36,042 nucleotides of DNA from a virus: positions 1 to 36,042 of the IMG/VR virus record IMGVR_UViG_3300044911_003373. The stretch is one strand, 5' to 3'. Each line of letters starts with the position of its first letter. Positions within the stretch are counted from its first letter, which is position 1. Below the pieces are notes generated by a model. That model searched no databases. It saw only the letters and a list, made by a program, of their open reading frames with translations, and had not been told where the DNA came from. Made by a program: the position numbers and the translations under genes. Shown here piece after piece: positions 3,365 to 15,672 of the stretch.

Positions 3365-3417
3365 GCGCCCCCACCCCCCTCGTCAGTGAACCGGTCCGCC
3401 ACTAGATCTAGATCAAG

Positions 3418-3449
3418 ACCGGCCGCTACAACACGCAGTAGCGGCCGGT
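3418..3449. repeat. 12-bp perfect inverted repeat (hairpin) in terminase leader
   Basis: ACCGGCCGCTAC at 3418-3429 pairs perfectly with 3438-3449 across an 8-base loop. It would lie in the 5' leader of the terminase transcript. It could be a transcript-protecting hairpin, an attenuator or a protein-binding site. There is no U-run on either side. Confidence 0.7.
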
Positions 3450-3480
3450 ACTAGTCAGCCTCGACAGAACCAGAAGAGAC

Positions 3481-3504
3481 GCCCAGCCCCTTCAAGGGCT
3501 GGGC
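3481..3504. repeat. GCCCAGCCC hairpin, copy 1
   Basis: GCCCAGCCC (3481-3489) pairs perfectly with GGGCTGGGC (3496-3504) over a 6-base loop. A near-identical hairpin follows at 3537-3559. Two copies of the same strong stem flanked by CTAG motifs suggest a recognised structure rather than chance. Confidence 0.75.
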
Positions 3505-3536
3505 CACCAGAACTAGTCCTTGTACTTGATCTAGTA

Positions 3537-3559
3537 GCCCAGCCCTTCAGGGGCTGGGC
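3537..3559. repeat. GCCCAGCCC hairpin, copy 2
   Basis: This has the same 9-bp stem as 3481-3504, here over a 5-base loop (TTCAG). It ends 2 bases before the phased CTAG array. Confidence 0.75.
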
Positions 3560-3561
3560 AT

Positions 3562-3599
3562 CTAGTCACTAGCAACTAGTAACTAGTAACTAGATCTAG
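3562..3599. repeat. Phased 7-bp CTAG iterons
   Basis: CTAG occurs at 3562, 3569, 3576, 3583 and 3590 at exact 7-bp spacing, then at 3596. Five more CTAGs lie at 3402, 3408, 3451, 3513 and 3531, giving 11 in 200 bp, although CTAG is usually scarce in bacterial and phage DNA. The unit reads CTAGTAA with small variations. Short tandem iterons like this commonly bind an initiator or regulator, but no binding protein can be assigned here. Confidence 0.75.
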
Positions 3600-3600
3600 T

Positions 3601-3840
3601 ACCAGGCCCAAATCCTTGCAACCGGCACAAGACAAACCACAAGCAGGCCCCCAAACACCGGGAGCCCCAGACACCAACAACAAGATCTCGACCAGCCAGT
3701 CTACAACCACCCCCCAACCACAGGTACGGAACCACCCCAACCAGCACACGCCCAGCACACCAAGCACCCCAACAACCAGCAACAAACCCGAACACCACAA
3801 ACAAACCAACAAACCACCCAATAGCCGGCCCCCCTGGTCC
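3601..3840. other. A/C-rich, G/T-poor tract
   Basis: For about 240 bp the plus strand is made almost only of A and C (runs such as CAACAACCAGCAACAAACC), with G and T scarce. A rightward RNA from it would be unstructured and C-rich, the composition typical of Rho-binding (rut) sites. The 80-residue frame it contains is a Pro/Thr/Gln/Asn low-complexity string without a ribosome site, so it is not called as a gene. Confidence 0.55.
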
Positions 3841-4175
3841 TGTTCTTTCCGTCCATAAGGCCCCTTCTACGATCGATCAGAGGCGGCGTTTATGCACCCC
3901 GGTTGCCGAGGGCGTCGGGGCACCCCCGGTCGGCGCATCGGCCCAGGCCAGGGCCCCTGTCGACCTGTTCAGGGGTCCAGGCCGGTCAGGGCCGGTGCGC
4001 TCGGCCTCCGGGCCCGGGCAGCACCACGTCGAGGGCTCGGCGACCTCGGCCGGTGGCCCGATCACAGGACACAGGCGACCGGTGTCGCCCGCCGAGGGGC
4101 GATCCGGGGGGCTCCGGGCCCAGGTCTGGTGCTGGCCCGGGTGACAGGTGTGTGGGTGGCTGGTTTGTCCCCTGG

Positions 4176-4204
4176 TTGGGGGACTTGGGGTCGAGTGTTA
4201 CGAT
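4176..4204 (+). promoter_or_regulatory. Candidate early rightward promoter
   Basis: TTGGGG (4176-4181) and TACGAT (4199-4204) are separated by 17 bp, close to a vegetative sigma-factor promoter, and the -10 fits the actinobacterial TANNNT pattern. Transcription would begin near 4211, about 370 bases before the first early gene, leaving a long structured leader. A GTGTTAC direct repeat (4196-4202 and 4206-4212) overlaps the -10 and could be a regulator site. Confidence 0.5.
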
Positions 4205-4228
4205 CGTGTTACAGGGTGCGGGTTGATG

Positions 4229-4244
4229 CTGGACGGGTCCTGGA
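4229..4244 (+). promoter_or_regulatory. CTGGAC..GTCC motif, site 1
   Basis: CTGGACGGGTCCTGGA lies just downstream of the candidate early promoter. Close relatives occur at 5883, 7157, 7639, 9565 (opposite strand) and 10948. The partial dyad (CTGGAC against GTCC) and its recurrence suggest an operator or RNA structural element. The function is not known. Confidence 0.45.
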
Positions 4245-4582
4245 TCGGGTGTACCGTGTCCTGTGTCGGCCGGGTTCGCCTGGTCGGTGGTCGAGGTTGC
4301 CGGTCCCTGTGACGACCGGTCCGCTGTTTGGCAAGTGAAGCGCACTGGCTGCCCCACCTGGGCCGCTCGGCTTGGTCCCCGGTAAGAGGGGGGAGGGCTG
4401 GGCGGGTTGGGTGGTGCGGGTGGCTGGTGGGCGCAAGATGACGTGTTCTCTCTTCCCTTGCGGGATCGCCTGGCTTCGGTCGGGTGGTCCCCGGGAGCCT
4501 CTGGCCGGTGTGGTTGGGGGTTGCCGGGGGCTGGCGGTTGCCGGTCCCCCACCTGCGGGTGGTGACTGAAGGAGAGATTGAG

Positions 4583-4819
4583 ATGGCGACGATTGTTGAT
4601 TCGATCGAGGTGCGTGTCGTGGTGGCCGAGGTGGCTGCTCTGGTGCACCAGTTGATTGGGCCGGTGCATCCGAAGTCGACGCAGACGGCTCGTGGCAAGA
4701 CCGAGGCCCAGCACCACATCGTGGACGTGTTTGTCCGGGCGTTGTTGGAGACGTGGGCGACGAAGGACGGCCCGCAGTTGGCTGATGCGGTGCTGGTGGG
4801 TGCGCCCGCCGAGGGGTGA
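4583..4819 (+). CDS. First early gene, unknown function
   Basis: 78 residues from the ATG at 4583, preceded by a strong Shine-Dalgarno in CTGAAGGAGAGATTGAG, the same leader found before the ribozyme-separated genes downstream. The protein looks helical (VAEVAALVHQLIGPV; IVDVFVRALLETWA) with a short Lys/Arg/Gln-rich middle. No known domain was recognised. It is the promoter-proximal gene of the early operon and the only gene in this group with no intact ribozyme before it. A ribozyme begins 4 bases after its stop. Confidence 0.75.
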   Translation: MATIVDSIEVRVVVAEVAALVHQLIGPVHPKSTQTARGKTEAQHHIVDVFVRALLETWATKDGPQLADAVLVGAPAEG

Positions 4820-4823
4820 CATG

Positions 4824-4886
4824 GTCGAAACCGGCCGGTGGCCGGTCCTGTGCGGGTGGTTCCCGCACGGCTGATGAGACAAACCG
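4824..4886 (+). ncRNA. Hammerhead ribozyme, type II, copy 1
   Basis: A self-cleaving RNA. Helix II is GTC 4824-4826 with GAC 4878-4880. GAAA is at 4827-4830. Helix III pairs 4830-4836 with 4840-4846 over a GGU loop. The cleavage dinucleotide UC is 4846-4847, with the cut after 4847. Helix I pairs 4848-4856 with 4862-4870, and CUGAUGA is at 4871-4877. Loop I GGUU (4858-4861) can pair with AACC (4882-4885). The predicted cut is 57 nt before the ATG at 4905. Confidence 0.93.
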
Positions 4887-4904
4887 ACTGAAGGAGAGAT
4901 TGAG

Positions 4905-5189
4905 ATGAGTGGAGCGTTGGAGTTGCTGGATGCCCAGTTGCGACAGGCCGTGTCGAACCGGGAATGGCACCGGGAGGCGCTGGAGGCCGCCCGGGCCCAG
5001 TTGGCCCGGTGCATCACGAGGGTCGCCGAGGCTGAGACTGCTGTGGCGGACTTGCAGCGGGAGGTGTTCCGGGCGTTGGGGCCGGTGCTGCAGGCGTCGT
5101 TGGGTTCGGTCGCCTCGGTCGAGGTGACGGTGCTGGACGACGCCGGTGAGGCGCTGTGGCGCCACTGGGGTGTGCTGGTCGAGGACTAG
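4905..5189 (+). CDS. Helical coiled-coil-like early protein
   Basis: 94 residues from ATG 4905, Shine-Dalgarno AAGGAGA at 4891. Residues 5-60 form one long amphipathic helix pattern (LLDAQLRQAV, EALEAARAQLARC, VAEAETAVADLQREV), consistent with a coiled coil. The C-terminus (VASVEVTVLDDAGEALWRHWGVLVED) looks like a beta hairpin. The function is unknown. The G of its TAG stop is also the first base of helix II of the next ribozyme, so termination and cleavage share sequence. Confidence 0.78.
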   Translation: MSGALELLDAQLRQAVSNREWHREALEAARAQLARCITRVAEAETAVADLQREVFRALGPVLQASLGSVASVEVTVLDDAGEALWRHWGVLVED

Positions 5190-5256
5190 TCGAAACCGGC
5201 CCCTGCGGGGGCCGGTCCATGCCGGGTGGTGCCCGGTGTGCTGATGAGACAAACCG
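5189..5256 (+). ncRNA. Hammerhead ribozyme, type II, copy 2
   Basis: Helix II is GTC 5189-5191 with GAC 5248-5250, its first base being the last base of the upstream TAG stop. GAAA is 5192-5195. Helix III pairs 5195-5203 with 5208-5216 around a UGCG loop. The cut is after C5217. Helix I pairs 5218-5226 with 5232-5240 and differs from copy 1 at several positions while staying paired. CUGAUGA is 5241-5247. Loop I GGU (5228-5230) pairs with ACC (5253-5255). The cut is 57 nt before the ATG at 5275. Confidence 0.93.
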
Positions 5257-5274
5257 ACACAAGGAGAGATTGAG

Positions 5275-5880
5275 ATGATTGAGACGACAGAGTTGACGGG
5301 TTCGTTGCTGGGTGCCGAGGTGTGGCAGCGGTTGGCGGACGAGTACCTGTTGGGGGCCCGGTCGAATGTGCCGGGCGTCGAGGCGCTGGGCGACTACGTC
5401 GACAGCCAGGTGGAACGCTGGGTGGTCGGTGGTGACGCCCCGCATGTCGAGTACTGGTGTTCGGGCACGTTCTGGGATCCCGTCCCCGGGCAGCCCTACG
5501 ACGGGCTGGATGACCTGTCCGCCGACGTGTTGGCCGGTTCGGCCCTGGTGTCGACCGACTACTGCGACCATCCGGTGTGGTCGCAGGACACAAACGTCCG
5601 GTTCCGGATCTGGCACGACACGGCGCACGTCCGGCATGGCCTCGGGTTCGGGGTGGATGACGAGGTGCGACTGTGGGTGCATCAGGCCCGGGAGATTGAC
5701 CGGCTGTTGCCGGTGGGTGCGGGGGCCGGTCGGGTGATCGATGCGTTGTTCTGCGAGTCGATCTACCAGTTGGCAGCGTTCATCGCTGGGGGCGGCCGGT
5801 ATCCGGACGAGCAGTACGTGGTGGCTGCGGGCCCGGTGGGTAAGCAGGTGCAGCACTTGCTGTTCGCTCTCGTGCGCTGA
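5275..5880 (+). CDS. Early protein with WHDxxH motif, possible metal-dependent enzyme
   Basis: 201 residues from ATG 5275 with AAGGAGA before it. The most conserved-looking part is the central segment RIWHDTAHVRHGLGFGVDDE followed later by ALFCESIYQLAAFIAGG. A WHDxxH cluster followed by acidic residues and a Glu/Ser helix resembles metal-binding sites of hydrolases, and similar WHD..H proteins occur in actinobacteriophages as I recall, but the family was not identified. It is the largest gene of the ribozyme-separated group. The function is unassigned. Confidence 0.78.
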   Translation: MIETTELTGSLLGAEVWQRLADEYLLGARSNVPGVEALGDYVDSQVERWVVGGDAPHVEYWCSGTFWDPVPGQPYDGLDDLSADVLAGSALVSTDYCDHPVWSQDTNVRFRIWHDTAHVRHGLGFGVDDEVRLWVHQAREIDRLLPVGAGAGRVIDALFCESIYQLAAFIAGGGRYPDEQYVVAAGPVGKQVQHLLFALVR

Positions 5881-5882
5881 TG

Positions 5883-5898
5883 CTGGACTGGTGCAGGA
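5883..5898 (+). promoter_or_regulatory. CTGGAC..GTSCAG motif, site 2
   Basis: CTGGACTGGTGCAGGA lies between the stop of the 201-residue gene and ribozyme copy 3. It is nearly identical to the site at 7157-7172, which also sits immediately before a ribozyme. It may be a DNA operator, an internal promoter element or an RNA extension of the ribozyme. Confidence 0.45.
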
Positions 5899-5900
5899 CG

Positions 5901-5962
5901 TGTCGAAACCGGCCGGTGGCCGGTCCGTCGGGGTGACCTCCCGGCGCTGATGAGACAGGTCG
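5901..5962 (+). ncRNA. Hammerhead ribozyme, type II, copy 3
   Basis: Helix II is UGUC 5901-5904 with GACA 5954-5957 (4 bp). GAAA is 5905-5908. Helix III pairs 5908-5914 with 5918-5924. The cut is after C5925. Helix I pairs 5926-5933 with 5939-5946. CUGAUGA is 5947-5953. Loop I GACC (5935-5938) pairs with GGUC (5958-5961). Both sides differ from the GGUU/AACC of copies 1 and 5, yet the pairing is kept. The cut is 53 nt before the ATG at 5979. Confidence 0.93.
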
Positions 5963-5978
5963 AGAAGGAGAAACAGAG

Positions 5979-6203
5979 ATGGATACCAACAAGGTTCAGG
6001 CCCGGGTGCGACAGGTTGCCGAGGCGTTGTTCGACAACGCTCACCGGTTCACGTGCAGTGAGGCCGAGGCGGTGTGTGACCTGTTTGCCGAGGTGGGCCT
6101 CGGCGGGCTGGTCGACGGGTTCCGGACCAGGCATGCCGAGGAAGACGAGGTCGGCGACCTTCACAAGGTGGTCGACGGTGTCGGGGTGTTCTGCGTGTTC
6201 TAG
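5979..6203 (+). CDS. Small acidic early protein, unknown
   Basis: 74 residues from ATG 5979 with AAGGAGA upstream. Helical and acidic (VRQVAEALFDNAHRF, SEAEAVCDLFAEVG, HAEEDEVGDLHKVVDG). No recognised family. As in the coiled-coil gene, the last base of its TAG stop is the first base of helix II of the next ribozyme. Confidence 0.75.
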   Translation: MDTNKVQARVRQVAEALFDNAHRFTCSEAEAVCDLFAEVGLGGLVDGFRTRHAEEDEVGDLHKVVDGVGVFCVF

Positions 6204-6263
6204 TCGAAACGGCCTGCGGGCCGTCCGTCGGGGATGGTTTCCCGGCGCTGATGAGACAGACCA
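6203..6263 (+). ncRNA. Hammerhead ribozyme, type II, copy 4
   Basis: Helix II is GUC 6203-6205 with GAC 6255-6257. GAAA is 6206-6209. Helix III pairs 6209-6214 with 6219-6224 around UGCG. The cut is after C6225. Helix I pairs 6226-6234 with 6239-6247. CUGAUGA is 6248-6254. Loop I UGGU (6235-6238) pairs with ACCA (6260-6263). Helix III is one pair shorter than in copy 1, yet remains perfect. The cut is 56 nt before the ATG at 6282. Confidence 0.92.
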
Positions 6264-6281
6264 ACTGAAGGAGGAATTGAG

Positions 6282-6572
6282 ATGAAGATCCGGTTCGTGG
6301 GTGTGGTCGGTGACGGCTACCTGTTGTGTCCGGACTGTTTCGACGCCGGGCAGGCCGCTGAGACGGTGCAGGTGTTGGAAGCGGAATGTGACCATTGGTG
6401 TGGGGCTGCGAACTGTCACCACGGTTCGCCGTCGAGGGCATTGGCGTTCGGTCGGACATCGTCCCGGGAAGGGGGCGATGTGGTGGCCCGTTTGCGTGAC
6501 GAGTTCGGGCCGCTGTGGGAATGGGAAGCGGACGAGGACGACTACTGCGATCAGTGCCACACGGGGCTATAG
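6282..6572 (+). CDS. Small Cys/His-rich early protein
   Basis: 96 residues from ATG 6282 preceded by AAGGAGGA. Cysteine pairs CPDC (about 16-19), CDHWC and CHH near the middle, and CDQC near the C-terminus suggest one or two zinc sites. No named family was recognised. A nucleic-acid-binding or protein-interaction role would be typical of small phage zinc proteins, but that is inference. Confidence 0.75.
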   Translation: MKIRFVGVVGDGYLLCPDCFDAGQAAETVQVLEAECDHWCGAANCHHGSPSRALAFGRTSSREGGDVVARLRDEFGPLWEWEADEDDYCDQCHTGL

Positions 6573-6586
6573 ACTGATCCTGGACG

Positions 6587-6651
6587 TGTCGAAACCGGCC
6601 TCGTGGCCGGTCCTGTGCGGGTGGTTCCCGCACGGCTGATGAGACAAACCA
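6587..6651 (+). ncRNA. Hammerhead ribozyme, type II, copy 5
   Basis: Helix II is UGUC 6587-6590 with GACA 6643-6646. GAAA is 6591-6594. Helix III pairs 6594-6600 with 6605-6611 around UCGU. The cut is after C6612. Helix I pairs 6613-6621 with 6627-6635. CUGAUGA is 6636-6642. Loop I UGGUU (6622-6626) pairs with AACCA (6647-6651), 5 bp. The cut is 57 nt before the ATG at 6670. Part of the CTGGAC motif (CCTGGACG) directly precedes it. Confidence 0.93.
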
Positions 6652-6669
6652 ACACAAGGAGAGATTGAC

Positions 6670-7149
6670 ATGGAGATCAAGACGAACAGGTTGTCGCACG
6701 ACGTGCTGTGGCAGGCCGAGAAGTGGTTGCGGCGGCACATTGCGCTGTGCGAGGTCGACAGGACCGGCTGGGATGACTACCAGTTGAGCGCCCACGACGC
6801 CCGGCTCGATGACCACGGGCTGGAGGCCTGTGACGTGCTGCTGACGGTCCTGTCGGGCCTCGGCATTGTCGGCGACATCGGCTGTGGGGTCGAAGCCCCG
6901 GTGTTTGTGACGGTGTACGACGTGGTCGACGAGTACGGCGGACCCGAGGAGGGCGGCTGGTGGTTCAGGGCCGGACGTGTGACCGCTGTGCACACGTTCG
7001 ACACGGCCGAGTTGGCTGACTGGTTCACGGGCCGTCTGCGGACCCAGTCGGGTGCGAAAGAGTTGCCTGCGACCGGTGTCGGGCTTCGCTACACGGTCGG
7101 TGACGAGCCGGGCCGGAACTTTCCGGAGTTCGCCCCGTCGTACGAGTGA
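6670..7149 (+). CDS. Early protein of unknown function, 159 residues
   Basis: Starts at ATG 6670 with AAGGAGA. The first 60 residues are helical (SHDVLWQAEKWLRRHIALCEV; HGLEACDVLLTVLSGLG). The second half alternates predicted strands (VFVTVYDVVDEYGG; WWFRAGRVTAVHTF) with a helix (TAELADWFTGRL), an alpha/beta arrangement. No catalytic motif or family is recognised. Confidence 0.76.
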   Translation: MEIKTNRLSHDVLWQAEKWLRRHIALCEVDRTGWDDYQLSAHDARLDDHGLEACDVLLTVLSGLGIVGDIGCGVEAPVFVTVYDVVDEYGGPEEGGWWFRAGRVTAVHTFDTAELADWFTGRLRTQSGAKELPATGVGLRYTVGDEPGRNFPEFAPSYE

Positions 7150-7156
7150 CCGGTTA

Positions 7157-7172
7157 CTGGACGGGTGCAGGA
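7157..7172 (+). promoter_or_regulatory. CTGGAC..GTSCAG motif, site 3
   Basis: CTGGACGGGTGCAGGA sits between the upstream stop and ribozyme copy 6, in the same arrangement as site 2. Confidence 0.45.
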
Positions 7173-7174
7173 CG

Positions 7175-7241
7175 TGTCGAAACGCCCCCCTGGTGGGGCG
7201 TCCGGTGGAGGTGGCTCCTCCACTGCTGATGAGACAAGCCG
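7175..7241 (+). ncRNA. Hammerhead ribozyme, type II, copy 6
   Basis: Helix II is UGUC 7175-7178 with GACA 7233-7236. GAAA is 7179-7182. Helix III pairs 7182-7188 with 7195-7201, a stem largely different from those of copies 1-5. The cut is after C7202. Helix I pairs 7203-7211 with 7217-7225 and is also rebuilt. CUGAUGA is 7226-7232. Loop I GGCU (7213-7216) pairs with AGCC (7237-7240). The cut is 55 nt before the ATG at 7258. Confidence 0.93.
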
Positions 7242-7257
7242 TGAATGAAGGAGAAGC

Positions 7258-7524
7258 ATGGAAACCGTGAACGTGATCCTGCTCGGCCATCCGGCCGATG
7301 CGGGAGACAACCTGGTGCGTGTCGAGGCGTCCGTTCCCGACGTGGAACGGTTCGTGGCCGATGAGGCCGCCAGCGGCCGCTGGGCGCATGCCGTGGTCGA
7401 CGAGGTGATCTCTGCGGGGCCGTACGGTCGCCGGTTGGCCGGTCTGATCCGGACCGGGCCCGACGGCGTGTGGTGGCACTACTACCGCACCGGTCCGGCC
7501 GTGGTGGTCGGGGAACTGTCGTGA
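7258..7524 (+). CDS. Small early protein, unknown
   Basis: 88 residues from ATG 7258 with GAAGGAGAAGC before it. It begins with a strand-like TVNVILLGHP and has a helix (VPDVERFVADEAASGRW) and an aromatic patch (GVWWHYYRTG). No known domain is visible. Its stop overlaps the GTG of a 30-residue membrane peptide as GTGA, so here coupling by overlap replaces ribozyme separation. Confidence 0.74.
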   Translation: METVNVILLGHPADAGDNLVRVEASVPDVERFVADEAASGRWAHAVVDEVISAGPYGRRLAGLIRTGPDGVWWHYYRTGPAVVVGELS

Positions 7525-7613
7525 CGGGCCCCTGGCCGGGTGTTGCCGGGCTGGTGTTCGTGGCGGCCGTGTTTGTGTGGGTGCTGGCTTTCCCGGGCCG
7601 GTACGGGGACTGA
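7521..7613 (+). CDS. 30-residue single-span membrane peptide
   Basis: GTG at 7521 overlaps the upstream stop by 4 bases. The peptide has one hydrophobic segment (VAGLVFVAAVFVWVLAF) followed by PGRYGD, as in a small inner-membrane microprotein. Its length is below usual annotation cut-offs, but the overlap geometry and the clean membrane segment support it. The function is unknown. Confidence 0.55.
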   Translation: MTGPWPGVAGLVFVAAVFVWVLAFPGRYGD

Positions 7614-7617
7614 CCGA

Positions 7618-7689
7618 AGGCGAAACCAGACCAGGATGCTAGACGGATCCTGGTTTGGTCCACCGGTGGATGCCGGTGCTGACGAGCCT
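7618..7689 (+). ncRNA. Hammerhead ribozyme, type II, copy 7 (CUGACGA variant)
   Basis: Helix II is AGGC 7618-7621 with GCCU 7686-7689, unrelated to the UGUC/GACA of other copies but fully paired. GAAA is 7622-7625. Helix III is long, pairing 7625-7636 with 7648-7659 (12 bp, one G-U). The cut is after C7660. Helix I pairs 7661-7666 with 7673-7678. The core is CUGACGA 7679-7685, with the variable fourth-next position changed from U to C, which hammerheads tolerate. The cut is 53 nt before the GTG at 7714. The CTAGAC motif forms the apical loop of helix III. Confidence 0.9.
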
Positions 7690-7713
7690 GTCAGGACAAC
7701 AAAGGAGGGATCC

Positions 7714-7896
7714 GTGAACAACGGATACACGCAGGAGAGGCCGGTGGTGGCTGGGCCATTGCCGGAACAGGTTCGGGACGAGATCGCTTCGATCGTCCGT
7801 TGCGGCGGTGAGGTGGTTTCAGTCGCCGAAACCGAGCATGGCACGGTGATCACGTACCGGCTCTGCCAGTCGCATGTGCTGGTGGTGTCGGAATGA
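7714..7896 (+). CDS. Small early protein, unknown (60 residues)
   Basis: GTG 7714 follows a strong AAAGGAGG Shine-Dalgarno at 7701. The helix (LPEQVRDEIASIVRCGGEVVS) is followed by beta strands (HGTVITYRLCQSHVLVVSE). Its stop overlaps the next ATG (ATGA). No family was recognised. Confidence 0.72.
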   Translation: MNNGYTQERPVVAGPLPEQVRDEIASIVRCGGEVVSVAETEHGTVITYRLCQSHVLVVSE

Positions 7897-8069
7897 AGAT
7901 CACGGTGAACGTGGTGAACGGTGAACCGTTGTCGTTCTCGGCGGTGAAGCCGCCGTGGCAGTGGCGGGACTTCCTGGTGATCGATACGGTCGGGAACGGT
8001 GTACTGACGTACGTGCCGTTGTCGATGGTCGAGTCGTTCACCGTTCCGGCGTTTGAGGCCGCCCGATGA
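7893..8069 (+). CDS. 58-residue early protein, unknown
   Basis: ATG 7893 overlaps the upstream stop. The sequence looks all-beta (MKITVNVVNGEPLSFSAV, DFLVIDTVGNGVLTYVPLS) with a central WQWRDF. It is flanked on both sides by 4-base overlaps with genes in the same direction, which supports it despite its size. The function is unknown. Confidence 0.68.
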   Translation: MKITVNVVNGEPLSFSAVKPPWQWRDFLVIDTVGNGVLTYVPLSMVESFTVPAFEAAR

Positions 8070-8236
8070 GTTCGGTGCGGTCGAAGGCCGATCGGGAAGC
8101 GGTCTGGCTGATGGGACAGTTGAAGGTCGCCCAGGGCCGTGCCGAGGGGCTGGAGTTGCGCCTGAAGGCCGCTGAGGCCCGGGTCCGGTATCTGGAGGCC
8201 GAACTGGCCCATCTGTGCCCGGCCCCGGAGTTCTGA
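8066..8236 (+). CDS. 56-residue coiled-coil protein
   Basis: ATG 8066 overlaps the previous stop. Residues 5-50 form one continuous amphipathic helix (EAVWLMGQLKVAQGRAEGLE, AEARVRYLEAELAHL), so a dimeric coiled coil is likely. It is the last gene of the first early block and is followed by a strong terminator hairpin. The function is unknown. Confidence 0.68.
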   Translation: MSSVRSKADREAVWLMGQLKVAQGRAEGLELRLKAAEARVRYLEAELAHLCPAPEF

Positions 8237-8268
8237 ACGGGATCACGTCATCTTTCACATGTCAGGAA

Positions 8269-8304
8269 GCAATGAGGCCACCCCTCCTGGGGTGGCCTCA
8301 TTGC
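8269..8304. terminator. Bidirectional terminator between convergent genes
   Basis: A perfect 16-bp stem (8269-8284 with 8289-8304) over a TCCT loop lies between the end of the rightward early block and the leftward endolysin gene. On the plus strand it is followed by GTTTCC, and on the minus strand by TTCC. Weak U-tracts are usual for high-GC actinobacterial phages. Confidence 0.85.
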
Positions 8305-8349
8305 GTTTCCGGGGACGATTCTGCGGGGACGGTCTGGACGGTTCTTGAA

Positions 8350-8922
8350 CTAGGCCCGGGGTTGGGCCGCCAAGAACGCCTCGATGTCGAGAACCCGTTG
8401 CGGGATCTTGTCACCGGCGAAATAGCGGACATGCCACGGTTCGGACTGCAGTTCAAACGACCAGCCGAGCGACTCGGCGTTGCCGATCAACCAATTGGTG
8501 GTGGCCCGAGTTGTCGACTTGGCGGTGTCGGGGTGGGTGCCGTGTGCGAGGTCAATGGCGAGGCCCCAACCGTGGTTGGATCCGCCCGGTGTGGCGGCCA
8601 TCGCAACACCCGGTTTCAGCCACCATGTCTGCCCGCCCCAGGTGCGGCTGGGGCGTGCCGGAAGCCGTGTGGTGGTGAACCGGGACAGGAACAGTCGTTC
8701 CTGCTGGTCGAGTGGCCTGTAGGTTCCGCCGTGGGTCCAGGTGAGGTTGATCCCTGCGGCTTTGGCGGCCACCCACAGCGCCACCCATGCTCTGGCTGCC
8801 TGGTGGTGCAGTCTGCCGCCATTGCCGATGTCGACAAGTAGCCGTGGTGCGAGTTCGCCGTTGCGTTGACCGGTGAGGTCTGCGGGTTGCGTGACCCGCC
8901 GGACCGGAAGTTTGGTGCCCAT
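8350..8922 (-). CDS. Endolysin: M15-family D-Ala-D-Ala peptidase
   Basis: 190 residues from ATG 8922. The M15/VanY zinc-peptidase signature is visible: H117 and D124 in SNHGWGLAIDLA, and E161 with H164 in SEPWHVRYF. These are the usual metal ligands (His, Asp, His) and the general-base Glu. The enzyme would cut peptidoglycan stem peptides at lysis. A basic N-terminal 35 residues may help wall binding; no separate cell-wall-binding domain is present. It is transcribed leftward, convergent with the early genes and followed by the terminator at 8269-8304. It heads no obvious lysis cassette, and membrane-protein candidates for a holin lie in the late block. Confidence 0.92.
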   Translation of the reverse strand: MGTKLPVRRVTQPADLTGQRNGELAPRLLVDIGNGGRLHHQAARAWVALWVAAKAAGINLTWTHGGTYRPLDQQERLFLSRFTTTRLPARPSRTWGGQTWWLKPGVAMAATPGGSNHGWGLAIDLAHGTHPDTAKSTTRATTNWLIGNAESLGWSFELQSEPWHVRYFAGDKIPQRVLDIEAFLAAQPRA

Positions 8923-8943
8923 ACCGGCACCCCCCGGCGGCTG

Positions 8944-9249
8944 TTACGGGAGCGGGATGCCGTGCTGGTTGAGTGTTTGTTCCAGAAGCCGGACCCGTAC
9001 CCGTGCGGTTACGAGCGCTTCCAGCATCGCTTCGACTTGGGCTTTGACTTGATCGGGGGCTTGGTGGGACTTCAGTGTGACGTTCCGTCGGGCCGCTTCG
9101 GTGTAGAACGTTTGTTTACTGATCTTGATCGGGAGCGATGCGATCAGTTCATCGATCGTGATGGACCCGTAGGCTTCGGGGTCCCATTCGTCGTACATTT
9201 GGGCGATTTGGGCCCAGGTTTCGTCAGATATCTTGCGTTTCGGTGGCAT
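8944..9249 (-). CDS. Basic helical protein with coiled-coil C-terminus, possible DNA-binding
   Basis: 101 residues from ATG 9249. The N-terminus is basic (MPPKRKISDETW). Residues 28-60 resemble a helix-turn-helix (TIDELIASLPIKISKQTFYTEAA), and residues 68-95 look like a coiled coil (VKAQVEAMLEALVTARVRVRLLEQTL). Together these suit a dimeric DNA-binding regulator or assembly protein. The family is not recognised. It lies between the endolysin and a small zinc protein, on the same strand. Confidence 0.7.
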   Translation of the reverse strand: MPPKRKISDETWAQIAQMYDEWDPEAYGSITIDELIASLPIKISKQTFYTEAARRNVTLKSHQAPDQVKAQVEAMLEALVTARVRVRLLEQTLNQHGIPLP

Positions 9250-9318
9250 GCCGGCATGATACGCCCCGATCTTGGACTGGGCAACGGGCCAAAGGTCCCG
9301 ATACGGTTTCTTGACGGG

Positions 9319-9516
9319 TCAAGTGAGGTGGGTGGGGTCGCCGGTCGCCCAGAACGCTTCTATCTTCGGGCTGTTGGAGTGCTGCACACCGACTGGACCC
9401 ATGATCCGGACTCGGCCAAGTGCCTGTTTGTCGGCTTTGCCGCAGTTCGGGCAGAACACGGTCCGGTGCGGGTTGCAGTGGGGCACGCAGGGGGGTTGTT
9501 TCGAGGATGTGCTCAC
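9319..9516 (-). CDS. Small zinc-ribbon-like protein
   Basis: 65 residues from GTG 9516. Cysteines in CVPHC (about 10-14) and CPNC (about 22-25), with two His between, could hold one zinc. The rest is short and without a recognised fold. Divergent from the gene at 9582, sharing a 65-bp control region. The gap 9250-9318 downstream holds nothing recognisable. Confidence 0.6.
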   Translation of the reverse strand: MSTSSKQPPCVPHCNPHRTVFCPNCGKADKQALGRVRIMGPVGVQHSNSPKIEAFWATGDPTHLT

Positions 9517-9534
9517 TGTGCCACACCCCCCGGC

Positions 9535-9572
9535 TATGATCCGATCCTGTCCAGGACCAGTCCAGATATGAT
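9535..9572 (+). promoter_or_regulatory. Divergent control region with TATGAT boxes and CTGGAC motif
   Basis: Two TATGAT hexamers (9535-9540 and 9567-9572) lie before the gene at 9582, but neither has a good -35 at 17 bp. Between them, 9544-9565 read on the minus strand gives CTGGACTGGTCCTGGACAGG, the same motif as at 4229. An operator overlapping a promoter is a natural reading. It is inferred from the motif only. Confidence 0.45.
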
Positions 9573-9581
9573 GAGGAACAT

Positions 9582-10058
9582 ATGAGCAACATTTCCGATG
9601 CAGAGCGGTGGGCTGGGAGCCCGTTGGTGACCGAAGCGGTCCGCAGGGCAGGTGAGGGCGCCGACACGGTCGACATCCTCACGGTGCTTGTCGACCTGAT
9701 GAACGACCTGGAGGACCGCTGCCCTGGCGTGCCGTTCGGGGTGATCTTCGACAGCGTTACACTCAACTCTGACGAGCAGAACCAGCACGGCCGTGAACAG
9801 ACCGGCATGATGTTGCTCGACCAGTACGGCTGGCCGTTGGAAGACATCGACGACCTGTTCGGTGGCCGGGACCGGTGGACCAATCAGGCGATCCGGACCG
9901 AACTGATGCGCCGCCGCCGTGGGCTGCGGGGCGAACATCCGGCACTGGCCCTGTATCGGGCCGGGATGTCACAGGCGGGGATCTGTCGGGAACTTGGCCT
10001 GTCCGATAGCCGGGTCAGTTTCGTGATCCGTCGAGCGATGTCGAAGGGGCTGCTGTGA
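9582..10058 (+). CDS. Regulator-like protein with C-terminal helix-turn-helix
   Basis: 158 residues from ATG 9582 with GAGGA upstream. The C-terminal 35 residues form a clear helix-turn-helix (YRAGMSQAGICRELGLSDSR, then VSFVIRRAMSKGLL), as in many site-specific regulators. The N-terminal 110 residues are helical and acidic with no recognised domain. First gene of the DNA-metabolism block, it overlaps the nuclease start (GTGA). A role in controlling this operon is possible but unproven. Confidence 0.75.
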   Translation: MSNISDAERWAGSPLVTEAVRRAGEGADTVDILTVLVDLMNDLEDRCPGVPFGVIFDSVTLNSDEQNQHGREQTGMMLLDQYGWPLEDIDDLFGGRDRWTNQAIRTELMRRRRGLRGEHPALALYRAGMSQAGICRELGLSDSRVSFVIRRAMSKGLL

Positions 10059-10927
10059 AGATCACCCAGTCGATTCTCGGGCAGGCCGACAAGTGTCTGC
10101 TGTCGGCCCAGTACACGCTCGATCGGCCCGTGTGGGTTCGTCGCAAGGCGTCGGCCGCTGCGACGCTCGGCACCGGGTTCCATGCCGGGCTGGAACACTA
10201 CTACGCCGAACGGATGCGTTACCCGGATCTGCAGGCCGATGACCCGCAGATGGTGGTCGACATGATCGAAACGGCGCACCTGGCGTTCGATGCGGGAACC
10301 CGGATCGACGCCTACAACGGCCAACCGGTTGAGCACTTCATGTGGGACGACAAGATCCCTGACCTTGCGACAGCCCATTCGTTGCTGGAAACGATGCTGA
10401 CCGCCTACTGCGAGCAGGGCTGGTGGTGGCCGGTCGAGTTCCAAGTGGTCGGCGTCGAGTTCGACCGTGTGTTGACGATCGTGCATGGCGATGTCGAGTT
10501 CGAAGCGAAACTGGGTGCCGACCTCGTGTTGCAGGACGAGAACGGCTGGATCGTGCTGGTGGACCACAAGACGGCCGGCCGTGCGTGGGACGAATCGAAG
10601 CATCATCCTCGCCGCAACAATCAGGCTTCGATGTACACGGCGTTGGCCGAGACGGTGTGGCCTGACGCTGCCGGGCACCGGTTCGTGTTCGACATCGTGA
10701 CGTTGCCCGGGAAACGGAAAGAGACAGCGTTCGAACGTCGGATCTCGGACCCGACCCCAGCCCATCGGGCCGCTGTGGTGAAGAAGGCTGCCGATCTGGC
10801 CCGGCTCTATCAGGTGGTGCACGTGGAGGCGGGCCAGGATCTGCCAGCGAACCCGGCCAGCACCCTGTGTAACCCGAAGTGGTGCGATTTCTGGGACGGC
10901 TGCCCGCACGGCGCCGTCTTGGACTGA
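10055..10927 (+). CDS. Cas4/RecB-type PD-(D/E)XK exonuclease with Fe-S cysteines
   Basis: 290 residues from GTG 10055. The nuclease core shows GADLVL, then VDHKTAG (the D-x-K pair), and a following NNQASMYTAL motif. One N-terminal Cys (QADKCLL, about residue 13) and three C-terminal Cys in TLCNPKWCDFWDGCPHG match the four-cysteine iron-sulfur arrangement of Cas4 and AddB-type nucleases. Such enzymes process DNA ends during phage replication and recombination. Placed directly before a possible ssDNA-binding gene and the helicase. No CRISPR array is seen nearby, so this is a replication/recombination nuclease rather than an adaptation protein. Confidence 0.88.
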   Translation: MKITQSILGQADKCLLSAQYTLDRPVWVRRKASAAATLGTGFHAGLEHYYAERMRYPDLQADDPQMVVDMIETAHLAFDAGTRIDAYNGQPVEHFMWDDKIPDLATAHSLLETMLTAYCEQGWWWPVEFQVVGVEFDRVLTIVHGDVEFEAKLGADLVLQDENGWIVLVDHKTAGRAWDESKHHPRRNNQASMYTALAETVWPDAAGHRFVFDIVTLPGKRKETAFERRISDPTPAHRAAVVKKAADLARLYQVVHVEAGQDLPANPASTLCNPKWCDFWDGCPHGAVLD

Positions 10928-10930
10928 CTA

Positions 10931-10999
10931 GAACGAAACCCTGGTTACTGGACTTGTCCAGGACCGGGTCGGTCGCTGAGTGGCGGCCCTGACGAGTTC
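10931..10999 (+). ncRNA. Hammerhead ribozyme, type II, copy 8 (CUGACGA variant)
   Basis: Helix II is GAAC 10931-10934 with GUUC 10996-10999. GAAA is 10935-10938. Helix III starts 10938-10941 with 10966-10969, continues with bulges, and ends in the CUGGA/UCCAG stem (10948-10952 with 10957-10961). The cut is after C10970. Helix I pairs 10971-10977 with 10982-10988. The core is CUGACGA 10989-10995. It begins 3 bases after the nuclease stop, and the cut is 53 nt before the ATG at 11024. It is detached from copies 1-7 by 3.2 kb. Confidence 0.87.
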
Positions 11000-11023
11000 G
11001 TCAGCACCTTGTGGAGGTATCCA

Positions 11024-11584
11024 ATGTCGTATGCAGATTCCGAGGGTTTGAAGGCCCTGCAGATCGCCGTGAACGTGGGCGTGAACGTGACGGCCGAGAT
11101 GTCGGCTGCTGTGGCCGCCACCGGTGGCGACCCGTACATCTACTTCGTTGAACACCTGGACGGTGTCGTGAACCTGATCGTCGCCACCCACGCCGAGCAG
11201 AAGATTCAGTCCGCTTTCGGTGCTGTTTCTGTCGATCCGGCGACGGACCCGGCGTTGGTCGGTCGTGGCCTGGCGTTCGTGCCGCCCGTCCAGGCCGCTG
11301 CACCGGTGGTGCAGGCCCCTGTGGTGCAGGCCCCGGCCCCGATCCCGATGGCGACCGTGTCGGCCGTCGTGAACTCGGAGACGGAGCGCCGCTGGACGTT
11401 GTTCTTCCAGAACCCGGACGCCTGGTGGAACAACATCAACAACAAGAAGAACCCGAAGCAGCCCGACTTCCGTCACAAGACCGAGAAGGGTGTCGACGGC
11501 TACCCGATCGGCCTGTGGATCCAGGACAAGGGCAACCCGGCCTGGGTTGCCGAGGGGCTCCGCCAGATCGGTCTGGTCGCCTGA
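11024..11584 (+). CDS. Possible single-stranded-DNA-binding protein
   Basis: 186 residues from ATG 11024 with GTGGAGG at 11011. The C-terminal part contains FFQNPDAWWNNINNKKNPKQ followed by PDFRHK, an aromatic and basic segment like those in phage ssDNA-binding proteins. The middle has an Ala/Pro/Val linker (AAAPVVQAPVVQAPAPIP). Context between a Cas4-type nuclease and a helicase fits ssDNA binding, but the family call is tentative. The gene is separated from the upstream nuclease by a ribozyme, which would give it its own mRNA. Confidence 0.65.
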   Translation: MSYADSEGLKALQIAVNVGVNVTAEMSAAVAATGGDPYIYFVEHLDGVVNLIVATHAEQKIQSAFGAVSVDPATDPALVGRGLAFVPPVQAAAPVVQAPVVQAPAPIPMATVSAVVNSETERRWTLFFQNPDAWWNNINNKKNPKQPDFRHKTEKGVDGYPIGLWIQDKGNPAWVAEGLRQIGLVA

Positions 11585-11585
11585 C

Positions 11586-11786
11586 ATGTCGGCCGGCGAG
11601 AAGGTCCCGGTACCGATCTCGGAGGTTCGTGCATGGGCGACCAGGCACGGCATCCCGGTCGGTGTCCGGGGCCATGTCCCCGAAGCGGTGATCCGCAAGT
11701 TCAACGAACGCCACCACAAGAAGGTGGCAAAGACACAGAACCCGTGGACCGGGAAGAGAGGTGGCGGCGATGACCGTGTTGCGTGA
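11586..11786 (+). CDS. Mini-Lsr2: DNA-binding domain of the actinobacterial nucleoid protein
   Basis: 66 residues from ATG 11586. Residues 11-36 (EVRAWATRHGIPVGVRG, then HVPEAVIRKFNE) match the Lsr2 C-terminal DNA-binding domain, including the RG turn that acts as an AT-hook-like minor-groove clamp. The N-terminal oligomerisation domain of full-length Lsr2 (normally about 60 residues more) is absent. A basic tail (HHKKVAKTQNPWTGKRGGG) follows. Lsr2 silences foreign AT-rich DNA in Actinobacteria, so a phage copy without the oligomerisation domain could compete with or modulate host silencing (inference). It overlaps the helicase start. Confidence 0.82.
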   Translation: MSAGEKVPVPISEVRAWATRHGIPVGVRGHVPEAVIRKFNERHHKKVAKTQNPWTGKRGGGDDRVA

Positions 11787-12720
11787 CGTGCGTGACGGGT
11801 TCACCGACTATCAGACGTGGGCGTCGGACGCCCGGCCCCGTATCGGGTTCGGGCTGCCGTTCTTCGACGGCCCGACCCGGGGCGGGATCGCCAAAGCGGA
11901 ATGCGCCATGATCTTGGCGTATTCGTCGGTCGGTAAGACCTCGATCGCCTTGAACGTGATCGTGAACAACCCGGCCACCCCGACCGTGTTCTTCTCGATC
12001 GAGATGTCGTGGCGTCTGGTCGTTGCTCGTCTCGCAGCGATCTACACGGGTACCCCAACGTGGGAGTTGGAGGCCTCGTTGAAGGCCGGCCGTTACCCGG
12101 ACCAGTTGTTGGACACTGCCGGCCAGTTCCCATTCCTGCTTGGGAACGACCAGTCCGAAATCTCCATCAAGGAGATGAAGACGTACGTGCAGGAAGCGGG
12201 CCGCAAGTTGGGGACCCCGATCCGGTTGATTGTGATCGACTACATGGAGTTGATCGGTGGTGCCGGGCTGCTCGGCAAGTCCGAACAGATCGATAAGGCG
12301 GCGACGAAGATTCGGGCGTTGGCGAAAGACACGGACGCTGCGGTGATCGTGTTGCATCAGGTTGGTAAGGGTGACGGGTCTGACGGTCACAAGGCGTTGT
12401 CGTTGGATTCGGGCCGGTTCGGTGGGCATCAACCGTTCGACTATGTGGTGGGTGCGTATGCGCCCAGGTTGAACCGGGAGTTGTCGGCCAGCGAACTGCA
12501 ACGGGTCGAGGACGAACTGTACTTGCAGTTGTTGAAGAACCGTTCCGGGAAGGCTGAGCCGGCCGGTGTGCGTCACCGGCTGGATGTGAAGACGAACCGG
12601 TTGACACCGCATGGTGTGTTCACGCCTCCGACGAACCCGAGGGGGTATCCGGTGGAGTTGGGTCGGGATCACGGCATGGCCGTGTACGGGTTGGTGCCCG
12701 AGCCTGGAGGCCCGTCGTGA
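11770..12720 (+). CDS. DnaB-type replicative helicase, RecA-fold domain only
   Basis: 316 residues from ATG 11770 (an in-frame GTG at 11761 is less well spaced from the AGAGGTGG ribosome site). Walker A AYSSVGKTS (50-58) and Walker B LIVIDYMEL (153-161) are clear, followed by VIVLHQVGKG, the H3-like motif of DnaB/RecA enzymes. The N-terminal primase-interaction domain of full-length DnaB is missing, so it resembles the short DnaB/RepA-like helicases of phages. The tail EPGGPS is encoded by the first copy of the junction repeat (12706-12722). Confidence 0.88.
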   Translation: MTVLRDVRDGFTDYQTWASDARPRIGFGLPFFDGPTRGGIAKAECAMILAYSSVGKTSIALNVIVNNPATPTVFFSIEMSWRLVVARLAAIYTGTPTWELEASLKAGRYPDQLLDTAGQFPFLLGNDQSEISIKEMKTYVQEAGRKLGTPIRLIVIDYMELIGGAGLLGKSEQIDKAATKIRALAKDTDAAVIVLHQVGKGDGSDGHKALSLDSGRFGGHQPFDYVVGAYAPRLNRELSASELQRVEDELYLQLLKNRSGKAEPAGVRHRLDVKTNRLTPHGVFTPPTNPRGYPVELGRDHGMAVYGLVPEPGGPS

Positions 12721-14465: not shown

Positions 14466-14731
14466 TCGGTGAGCAGCGCATTGGTTCCGAGTTGACGCCG
14501 CAACAGATCGAACGCCTGGCTGACTACTACCACGAACGTGAGTGCACGCGTAACCACACGGACGGGTGTGGCTGGTTCTACGAGAAAGCAGCGTCATACC
14601 CGCCTACGGCCAAGAAGTGGGAACACGACTCTTGGGCTAAGCGAGTGCCAGCCCTGCTCGCTCGGGACCGCCAGCAGTTGGACGTAATCAAGACCATCCT
14701 CGGTGAGTGGGTGTTGGGAGACCCGTCGTGA
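14462..14731 (+). CDS. Small protein, unknown (89 residues)
   Basis: GTG 14462. Helical start (LTPQQIERLADYYHEREC), then a CGWFYEK segment, then AKRVPALLARDRQQLDVIKT. One Cys/His set (C..NH..GC) might bind metal. No family was recognised. Last of the small-gene array before the primase. The end GDPS is junction-encoded. Confidence 0.74.
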   Translation: MIGEQRIGSELTPQQIERLADYYHERECTRNHTDGCGWFYEKAASYPPTAKKWEHDSWAKRVPALLARDRQQLDVIKTILGEWVLGDPS

Positions 14732-15672
14732 GCGGTGACATCGATTGGGAAGAGATGACGGTTGGCGACAAGATCGCCGCCATCAAAGCCACCATCTCGC
14801 CACGTGACCTTGTCGATCTACTCGACGACCTCGACGTGATCGGCGACAAGATCCGGTCCCCACACAACCCGGGGGAACGCACACCGTCCTGCCACCTGTA
14901 CGACGACCACTGGTTCGACTACTCGACCGGCAAAGGTGGCGACGTGATCGACCTCGCAATCCTGTTGACCGGATCAACATGGAACGCTGCCGTTGGCCTT
15001 CTGGCAAGGGCAGCACAATCCGAAGATCTCGACATCGGCAGGATTGCCCGGCCGGCAGTTGCGGAGGAACTGCCCGACATGACCGACGACTACCAGACCG
15101 TTGCCCGCCGCTACCTCTCCCTTGGGTTAGAACAGCAGGTCCTCGCCGACCGTATCCCGGGCGTGTTGCCGAACACGTGGCGTGCGCTGGTAAAGAACAG
15201 ATCAGTGACAGTTGAGGGCGAAACGATCCTTATCCCTCACATTCATGACGGTGTGGTGCGGGGCGTGAAGGTGCGTGGCGTGAACGGTCAGAAATCTGCT
15301 TGGCCGGGATCGAAGTTCACGTGCGGCCTGTACCGGTTCAACACCGGTGTCGAGTACTGGTCGCCGACAACTATGTGCGTGATCACCGAAGGCGAAACAG
15401 ACTGTTGGGCGCTCACCGGTCTGGTTGACGCCGACGTGTTCTCGCTTCCGTCCGGTGCCGGTCTATGGCGCAAAGAATGGCTTGACGAACTCGACCGGTA
15501 CGACCGGATCTTTACCGCCTTCGACAACGACCACGCCGGCCAACAGGCCACCGAGAAAGTGCGTGCCTCGATCGGGTGGGGCAGGTGGCGGCAACTACAG
15601 GTGCCGCCCTTCTACAACGATGTTCGGGAAGCAATCATTGTCGGCTGGAAGCCCCGCCTCCCACCGGCCTGA
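14728..15672 (+). CDS. DNA primase with TOPRIM domain
   Basis: 314 residues from GTG 14728. The TOPRIM signature is clear: ITEGETD with E221, and FTAFDNDHAG with D266 and D268. Upstream, NPGERTPSCHLYDDHWFDYS followed by GGDVIDLA matches the region that normally follows a CHC2-type zinc finger, but the full zinc cysteine set is missing. It would synthesise RNA primers alongside the helicase at 11770. A DNA polymerase gene is not visible in the window, so the phage may use the host enzyme or encode one elsewhere. The start uses the last copy of the junction repeat. Confidence 0.88.
   Translation: MSGDIDWEEMTVGDKIAAIKATISPRDLVDLLDDLDVIGDKIRSPHNPGERTPSCHLYDDHWFDYSTGKGGDVIDLAILLTGSTWNAAVGLLARAAQSEDLDIGRIARPAVAEELPDMTDDYQTVARRYLSLGLEQQVLADRIPGVLPNTWRALVKNRSVTVEGETILIPHIHDGVVRGVKVRGVNGQKSAWPGSKFTCGLYRFNTGVEYWSPTTMCVITEGETDCWALTGLVDADVFSLPSGAGLWRKEWLDELDRYDRIFTAFDNDHAGQQATEKVRASIGWGRWRQLQVPPFYNDVREAIIVGWKPRLPPA

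Follow-up and report, generated by a model that had tools for sequence, protein, structure and literature searches.

Type II hammerhead motifs in the gene gaps of a phage operon, a tRNA-like minihelix in such gaps of hammerhead-free relatives, and their possible role in operon punctuation

Hammerhead motifs between the genes of the window

The stretch under study, hereafter called the window, comprises 36,042 nucleotides (nt) of the IMG/VR virus record IMGVR_UViG_3300044911_003373. On its plus strand we found an operon of 11 open reading frames (ORFs) with motifs of the type II hammerhead ribozyme (HHR) in the gaps between its genes; the window holds eight such motifs, named HH1-HH8 (Table 1). 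HH1-HH7 occupy all seven non-overlapping junctions of the operon, in agreement with an initial annotation made from the sequence, which had placed hammerheads in seven consecutive gaps, and none of the three junctions at which ORFs overlap (-4 nt) holds one. All eight motifs are oriented in the sense of the genes. The additional proposal of the annotation, namely that all eight would dice one and the same operon, fits the placement of HH1-HH7 but not that of HH8, which probably belongs to a separate transcription unit, since it is divided from the array by two ORFs on the minus strand and by a strong hairpin. HH8 is situated within a second plus-strand unit running from position 9582 onward, where it lies in a gap of 96 nt that separates an exonuclease-like gene from the ORF starting at position 11024.

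A strict descriptor, in which GAAA, U-H and CUGANGA are required along with three helices without interruption, recovered seven of the eight motifs, HH8 being missed, and gave no match in 100 dinucleotide shuffles. A looser descriptor, in which one bulge is permitted, recovered all eight and gave none in 300 shuffled windows searched on both strands. The order GAAA, helix III, UC, helix I, CUGANGA and a closing helix II, which the initial annotation had given, is indeed found at all eight places on the plus strand, and the cut positions given by the descriptor are identical to those predicted earlier. The core elements, i.e. GAAA, the NUH cleavage site and CUGANGA, are present in every motif, as are three helices in type II order with helix II open. 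HH8, with its interrupted helix III, is the weakest case of the eight. The window was also scanned with all Rfam models, and for RF02276 (Hammerhead_II, gathering score 37 bits) six motifs, HH1-HH6, scored above gathering, at 39.8 to 61.4 bits, and belong to the family by that measure, while HH7 scored 25.7 bits, under the cut-off, and HH8 was not detected. The hammerheads described here are members of a known family.

The stems show paired changes in helices I, II and III, as had been claimed. In helix II the pairs are C-G, U-A and G-C in HH1-HH6, C-G, G-C and G-C in HH7, and C-G, A-U and A-U in HH8, and helices I and III vary likewise. A structure that the earlier reading lacked is a pseudoknot between loop I and the 3' tail, a pairing that is common, not universal, in type II hammerheads. 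It is present in most of the copies and covaries between them, with five to six pairs in HH1 and HH3-HH6, and four pairs in the common register in HH2. Perreault et al. (2011; PMC3088659) showed that a type II ribozyme depends on such a pseudoknot to cleave fast.

The ribozymes sit between the upstream stop codon and the downstream Shine-Dalgarno (SD) sequence, taking up most or all of the gap. From the predicted cut to the start codon the distance is 53-57 nt in all eight cases, with the SD 4-8 nt from the start. When the fragments that would result from cleavage were folded, the predicted upstream fragments had a hairpin (helix III) at most 2 nt from the 3' end in 8/8 folds, and the predicted downstream fragments opened with helix I in 7/8.

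Table 1. Coordinates of the predicted hammerheads, the operon and neighboring features in the window. The starts of ORF 4583-4819 and of the 30-amino-acid ORF 7521-7613 are our choice.
Feature	Start	End	Strand	Predicted cut after	Evidence and remarks
Operon of 11 ORFs	4583	8236	+		ORF reading; HH1-HH7 at its junctions
Operon ORF	4583	4819	+		
HH1, type II hammerhead	4823	4888	+	4847	RF02276 39.8 bits; descriptor; pseudoknot TGGTT/AACCG
Operon ORF	4905	5189	+		
HH2, type II hammerhead	5188	5258	+	5217	RF02276 44.0 bits; descriptor; pseudoknot TGGT/ACCG; stop TAG of upstream gene (5187-5189) ends 2 nt ahead of GAAA
Operon ORF	5275	5880	+		
HH3, type II hammerhead	5901	5964	+	5925	RF02276 46.8 bits; pseudoknot TGACCT/AGGTCG
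Operon ORF	5979	6203	+		
HH4, type II hammerhead	6202	6265	+	6225	RF02276 61.4 bits; descriptor; pseudoknot TGGTTT/AGACCA; stop TAG of upstream gene (6201-6203) ends 2 nt ahead of GAAA
Operon ORF	6282	6572	+		
HH5, type II hammerhead	6587	6653	+	6612	RF02276 45.1 bits; pseudoknot TGGTT/AACCA
Operon ORF	6670	7149	+		
HH6, type II hammerhead	7175	7244	+	7202	RF02276 41.8 bits; pseudoknot GTGGCT/AGCCGT
Operon ORF	7258	7524	+		
Operon ORF	7521	7613	+		
HH7, divergent type II hammerhead	7618	7696	+	7660	RF02276 25.7 bits; both descriptors; CUGACGA core; long helix III; no clear pseudoknot
Operon ORF	7714	7896	+		
Operon ORF	7893	8069	+		
Operon ORF	8066	8236	+		
Strong hairpin	8269	8304			-36 kcal/mol; between convergent ORFs
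PD-(D/E)XK exonuclease-like gene, upstream of HH8	10055	10927	+		PF12705 2.3e-14; phrog_69 1.2e-14
HH8, divergent type II hammerhead	10931	10999	+	10970	Loose descriptor; helix III interrupted, holding a CTGGAC..GTCCAG dyad
Gene downstream of HH8	11024	11584	+		Counterpart in L168

Hammerhead arrays and a tRNA-like minihelix in other phages

A pattern scan of IMG/VR yielded at least 118 stretches, and the whole records were then searched with RF02276. Among the matches listed, a scope that applies to all counts of IMG/VR ribozymes given below, 107 of 118 records had a match at E<=0.001, 46 had at least two hammerheads and 11 at least four, some of these being near-copies. The records G027 and G116, for example, hold one and the same array, and G093 a similar one. 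At the same threshold, the whole genomes of six Streptomyces phages gave 10 (Celia), 11 (Alvy), 11 (BartholomewSD), 9 (Omar), 9 (Diane) and 9 (R4) matches, of which three in Celia, one in Alvy and one in BartholomewSD do not reach the gathering score. The minus strand carries all 59 matches and is also the strand of the annotated early-region genes in the five Streptomyces stretches viewed. Other named phages with matches were Roseobacter phage CRP-212 (two) and Pseudomonas phage vsMR (one). None was found in the whole genomes of Endor1, Hydra, Chucky and ElGato, and phi-C31 had neither a hammerhead (RF02276) nor the tRNA-like element described below (model R1). Hosts include S. coelicolor for R4, S. 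lividans for Alvy, S. xanthochromogenes for Celia and S. coelicolor M600 for Endor1.

The spacing seen in the window recurs in other phages; the initial annotation had suggested looking for it in related ones. The median distance from cut to start codon is 58 nt in five Streptomyces phages, as measured on the 28 HHRs found by descriptor out of 48 RF02276 matches (HHRs in which an additional base follows CUGAUGA escape the descriptor but are detected by Rfam), and it is 57 nt in 169 of the 190 ribozymes of IMG/VR loci.

Some tiny annotated ORFs overlie type II hammerheads, namely gp60.1, gp67.1 and gp75.1 of R4 (L151 1763-1846, 4126-4218 and 7074-7175) and gene 84 of Alvy (L152 10037-10111), and these are probably misannotations. 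Repeated promoter-like boxes (TGTGATACTGT, GTGTGCAAGTG and TGATAGTGTCGC) were seen by eye ahead of several hammerheads of Streptomyces phages (L127, L152, L153 and L154); since they precede the hammerheads, some ribozymes may trim the leaders of internal promoters.

Endor1, Hydra, Chucky and ElGato, whose early regions are labeled L155, L156, L157 and L158, respectively, carry a different element. The first three are filed in Arquatrovirinae, the same subfamily as the hammerhead phages; ElGato has no Arquatrovirinae label and was found with Celia DNA. The element is a 56-nt minihelix with no D arm and no anticodon arm, in which a 5-base-pair (bp) acceptor-like stem is joined through an 11-nt linker containing GGCA to a T-stem of 6 bp with a GUUCGANNC T-loop, mostly with ACU after the acceptor (examples are L148:409-448 and L146:1796-1835). 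By descriptor, the four phages have 9, 10, 6 and 9 copies, respectively, all in sense and none in antisense orientation. These 34 copies were aligned in 32 rows (alignment A1), omitting an Endor1 copy with a 10-nt linker and an ElGato copy identical to one in Endor1. In the 32 distinct sequences, all 384 cells of the 12 pairs are standard pairs, and the covariation score is 0.579, whereas shuffles gave 0.123 and sliding of the pairing no more than 0.10; of the five measures taken, that of pair types did not stand out, their number being 18 vs 16.2 in shuffles (107/500 as high).

Most of this pairing was demanded by the descriptor, but the GGCA of the linker and a base pair between linker and loop were not. 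A linker base pairs with the last base of the T-loop in four versions, i.e. A-U in 21, G-C in 6, C-G in 4 and U-A in 1. Furthermore, when GTTCGA sites in sense gaps of at least 60 nt were collected from the four phages with no pairing required, 32/32 had both stems, GGCA and the linker-loop pair, and ACT was present at 30/32, as compared with both stems at 1/29 GTTCGA sites elsewhere on that strand. All 32 gap sites show the shape of an RNase P substrate, i.e. an acceptor-like stem stacked on a T-arm with a GUUCGANNC loop.

A scan of 13 minihelix copies with Rfam 15 gave nothing above a gathering score, and one Hydra copy among them resembles mascRNA (RF01684) below the cut-off (E 0.11). From the sequence features above, the minihelix is a candidate new RNA family and a candidate RNase P substrate. 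A covariance model built from the copies, model R1, was applied to seven further IMG/VR records taken for the minihelix; three of them have 8-9 copies each, two have a single match each that is weak or partial, and two have none. RF02276 gave no match in these seven records. Conversely, R1 had no match in the window, the six hammerhead-rich Streptomyces phages, CRP-212, vsMR or eight hammerhead-array IMG/VR records. The sole match of a loose minihelix descriptor in the window (15298-15355) is probably due to chance, lying inside a primase-like ORF (14707-15672), and the same descriptor matched once in 3.3 Mb of shuffled DNA. Two gaps in Chucky (L157 minus strand, reverse-complement 6278 and 6642) hold a third structured element, GGAGCATCG...CGGTGTGCTGCA, which matches neither the hammerhead nor the minihelix.

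The two elements exclude each other and occupy the same class of gap. In five hammerhead phages, HHRs were found in 34/38 gaps of at least 60 nt, 5/15 gaps of 21-59 nt and 2/81 shorter junctions, and the minihelix in 0/38 of the long gaps. In the four HHR-free relatives, the minihelix was found in 32/42 gaps of at least 60 nt, 0/11 of 21-59 nt and 0/37 shorter ones, with no HHR. For this count BartholomewSD was left out, one Celia HHR detected by the loose descriptor only was added by hand, and three annotated ORFs of R4 and one of Alvy, which are 75-102 nt long and overlie ribozymes, were disregarded. None of 10 Streptomyces phages had both elements in one genome. Junctions of a hammerhead phage and a minihelix phage were treated as orthologous when the genes on either flank were both reciprocal best hits, and pairs with an element in one or both phages were counted; out of five such pairs, four, representing two distinct junctions, had an HHR on one side and a minihelix on the other, and the fifth was empty vs minihelix.

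A substitution is also possible at the position of HH8. L168, a relative of the window's phage in which no hammerhead was found, has counterparts of the exonuclease gene (57% identity) and of the gene that follows HH8 (32%). Ahead of the latter counterpart, its gap (L168:7244-7296) can be drawn as a tRNA-like fold of reduced form, in which the loop is GTTCGACTC and the acceptor is followed by ACTCC. This fold, which rests on T-loop and acceptor geometry (1 false match in 3.3 Mb of shuffled DNA) and on its position, may be a tRNA-like replacement. Two other gaps in L168 (834-927 and 2411-2520) both hold AGCCCTGCCAGA and GGCCGGGAGCGCT..GCTCC hairpin blocks.

Genomic surroundings of the array

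The record of the window encodes a large terminase, a DnaB-like helicase and an integrase, which together indicate a temperate-type tailed phage. We infer that the operon with the array is probably an early operon. Ten of its ORFs (all except 7521-7613) were searched against PHROGs, where three match families, all of unknown function, and seven had no match; none of the nine searched against Pfam scored above a cut-off. The identical set of seven RF02276 matches is present in a longer record of 46.2 kb, whose identity to the window is 99.99% across the 22.7 kb that were compared. No tRNA genes were found in the window. The strong hairpin between the convergent ORFs behind the array is likely the terminator that closes the operon. 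In the region 3300-12000, a scan for intrinsic terminators gave seven sites (5.2 expected), none of them over HH1-HH8, and a scan for sigma-70 promoters gave one (0.8 expected), outside the array.

An 18-bp dyad-like motif, TGCTGGACNGGTCCAGGA, occurs at five places in the window (4227-4244, 5881-5898, 7155-7172, 9550-9567 and 10946-10963), i.e. ahead of the array, in gaps and within helix III of HH8, with six matches at no more than three mismatches vs 0.16 expected by chance. It is possibly an operator or promoter element. A large inverted repeat, GCCCAGCCCTTGAAGGGGCTGGGC, with further arms, is located at 3477-3563, just upstream of the minus-strand terminase gene.

Possible roles and relation to known systems

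We consider it probable, at about two chances in three, that the HHR array punctuates the phage operon by means of predicted self-cleaving RNAs, with the minihelix as an alternative cutter in relatives. The proposal builds on the identity of the motifs, their covariation, placement, sense orientation and recurrence, and on their exclusion with the minihelix in relatives. As a self-cutting RNA and an RNase P-shaped RNA alternate in the same kind of gap, the simplest job that they could share is a cut between genes. As RNA polymerase passes, the ribozyme would fold and make a single cut, where helix III gives way to helix I. This would leave the upstream mRNA with the helix III hairpin and a 2',3'-cyclic phosphate at its 3' end, while the downstream mRNA would start with a 5'-hydroxyl (5'-OH) and the helix I hairpin, about 55 nt ahead of the start codon. 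Every gene would in this way obtain its own message with hairpins at both ends, a standard leader and insulation from its neighbors, and cleavage in vivo would presumably bring a benefit through stabilization or insulation of the early messages. Related phages would reach the same end via the minihelix in such gaps, probably with host RNase P as the cutter. We lean, with less assurance, towards a wider version of the proposal, namely that Streptomyces phages and their kin share a grammar of early-operon punctuation, in which nearly every real gap has an RNA-cutting element of one of two unrelated kinds, interchangeable at a given junction (the hammerhead and the RNase P-cut minihelix), giving single-gene mRNAs with structured ends, and that this is the general function of clustered phage hammerheads.

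Several observations weigh against punctuation. HH7 lies under the RF02276 cut-off with an E of 0.36, the HH8 site has no Rfam match even at E<=5, and a pseudoknot search in these two gave only four pairs each and no pseudoknot in the usual register. As these four-pair matches overlap helix I, four pairs alone are weak evidence and can arise by chance, and the HH2 pseudoknot is therefore counted by its register. Identity between HH1 and HH5 reaches 93% over 85 nt, the remaining copies being 72-81% alike, so that the copies are partly recent duplicates and HH1-HH8 do not make eight independent cases. On the minihelix side, ARAGORN found no full cloverleaf tRNA genes in L155 (Endor1), L156 (Hydra), L168 and L170, and the minihelices are not known RNase P substrates, with ACU instead of ACCA following the acceptor. 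The fold in L168 was not detected by model R1, is no more stable than shuffles (z -0.64) and has an HNH gene inserted upstream of it, and in the L168 gap behind a shared array gene (48% identity) the scans made found neither element. The HHR and minihelix groups may also represent one switch within Arquatrovirinae, and a tree of the deoxynucleoside monophosphate (dNMP) kinase did not resolve the two groups. Moreover, 5'-OH ends can also feed decay, as in the case of glmS and RNase J1. Lastly, the mean unpaired probability of the SD, from folding without pseudoknots, is 0.71 in the uncut and 0.60 in the cut RNA. The predicted folding thus argues against unmasking of the ribosome-binding site through cleavage, and since cutting is not predicted to raise SD accessibility, the benefit must lie elsewhere.

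The position of the stop codons would also fit a different role, a translation-gated decay switch, in which a terminating ribosome covers GAAA and part of helix III, so that the ribozyme cuts only when the upstream stop is free of ribosomes, and poorly translated mRNAs are cut and degraded via their 5'-OH ends. With stops assigned mechanically, i.e. to the longest open frame of at least 40 codons, the upstream stop ends no more than 10 nt from GAAA in 5/8 ribozymes of the window, 13/28 in the Streptomyces phages, 8/10 in further array regions and 152/184 in IMG/VR. In 61 of these 184 it lies exactly 2 nt away, and 59 of the 61 are UAG, the G of which is then a helix II base; the IMG/VR search pattern fixed that G, but not the preceding U and A. 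However, HH3, HH5 and HH6 are 18-29 nt from the upstream stop, the minihelices, mostly 6-21 nt from it, are found up to 45 nt and twice more than 100 nt away, and compact gaps alone could account for the closeness, and we regard such a switch as unlikely. Still less probable, in our view, is that the repeats act as cassette linkers, i.e. as DNA homology for gene shuffling with incidental RNA activity. The ribozyme repeats are indeed alike between gaps (72-93%), the SD stretch is repeated too, and most array ORFs (7/10) have no PHROGs relative, but the compensating changes in helices and pseudoknots erode DNA homology while preserving RNA structure, and the core is preserved in 8/8.

Pairs of hammerheads could also excise gene-length RNAs for ligation into circular mRNAs by the host RtcB, as flanking ribozymes would yield exactly the ends that RtcB joins. 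The minihelices, which would not yield such ends, fill such gaps in relatives, and Perreault et al. report having been unable to detect spliced or circular products (PMC3088659), making this reading quite improbable. The GC-rich hairpins at the predicted 3' ends recall transcription terminators or attenuators, in which case helix III would merely halt the polymerase; that they have no T-tract behind them, that none of the seven predicted terminator sites falls over HH1-HH8, and that the conservation of GAAA, UH, CUGANGA and the pseudoknot would be left unexplained make this hardly credible. An equally slight chance is given to selfish spread of a mobile RNA-derived repeat with no benefit to the phage, which would account for the many similar copies per genome but fits poorly with the sense-only orientation (59/59 in the six Streptomyces phages on the minus strand) and with an unrelated element occupying such junctions in relatives.

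Punctuation by RNA has precedents of several kinds. Transfer RNAs punctuate the polycistronic RNA of mitochondria, and tRNA-like RNAs also mark cut sites in mascRNA and menRNA (RF01684), to which the minihelix would be an analogue. Unlike these, the minihelices, as putative substrates of cleavage, have neither D nor anticodon arms and are placed between phage genes. Among ribozymes, the self-cleaving insulator RiboJ derives from a hammerhead. According to PMC6206723, its use in E. coli increases transcript levels about 2-fold and protein levels 2- to 10-fold. Like the predicted ribozymes of the window, it is a self-cleaving ribozyme upstream of the ribosome-binding site, and the uniform structured leader may have its parallel in the predicted leaders of the window, which are of near-constant length in 8/8 and have helix I at the 5' end in 7/8 folds. 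RiboJ is a synthetic part used behind promoters, whereas the window has natural ribozymes between operon genes.

The closest precedent is that of Perreault et al., and it corrects one claim of the initial annotation, i.e. that an array cutting an operon into single genes is an undescribed architecture. That paper already describes prophages in which several hammerheads border individual genes or short blocks of genes, with processing into single-gene mRNAs proposed, and in vitro cleavage by tandem prophage HHRs, which for one set was seen in E. coli as well (PMC3088659). The likeness extends to type II, the loop I-tail pseudoknot of most copies and several hammerheads flanking phage genes, and the window, with seven consecutive junctions and HH8, belongs with these clustered prophage hammerheads, of which at least two flanking genes are characteristic. 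It differs in that a triple arrangement and tandem fragments of about 2 kb are described in those passages, as against seven consecutive filled junctions here, isolated phages with 9-11 hammerheads and minihelices substituting in relatives; the term 'stop codon' does not occur in its main text. Passages of a 2017 review (PMC6155905) treat the role of prokaryotic hammerheads as still open and note a link with phages. Within the literature searched, three features appear to be new: an operon in which no true gap is left without a hammerhead, arrays of 9-11 copies in phages that are isolated and named, and the exchange of hammerheads for a minihelix. The minihelix itself was found neither in the open-licence literature searched nor, above gathering, in Rfam 15.

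If the punctuation reading is true, phages have evolved a system of cutting mRNA between genes that is akin to the tRNA punctuation of mitochondria, and natural counterparts of a standard insulator of synthetic biology exist in numbers. The wider version would also supply the general function of clustered phage hammerheads, which has been open since 2011. The array, together with its counterparts in isolated phages and the minihelices of close relatives, makes the question of what these hammerheads do directly testable.

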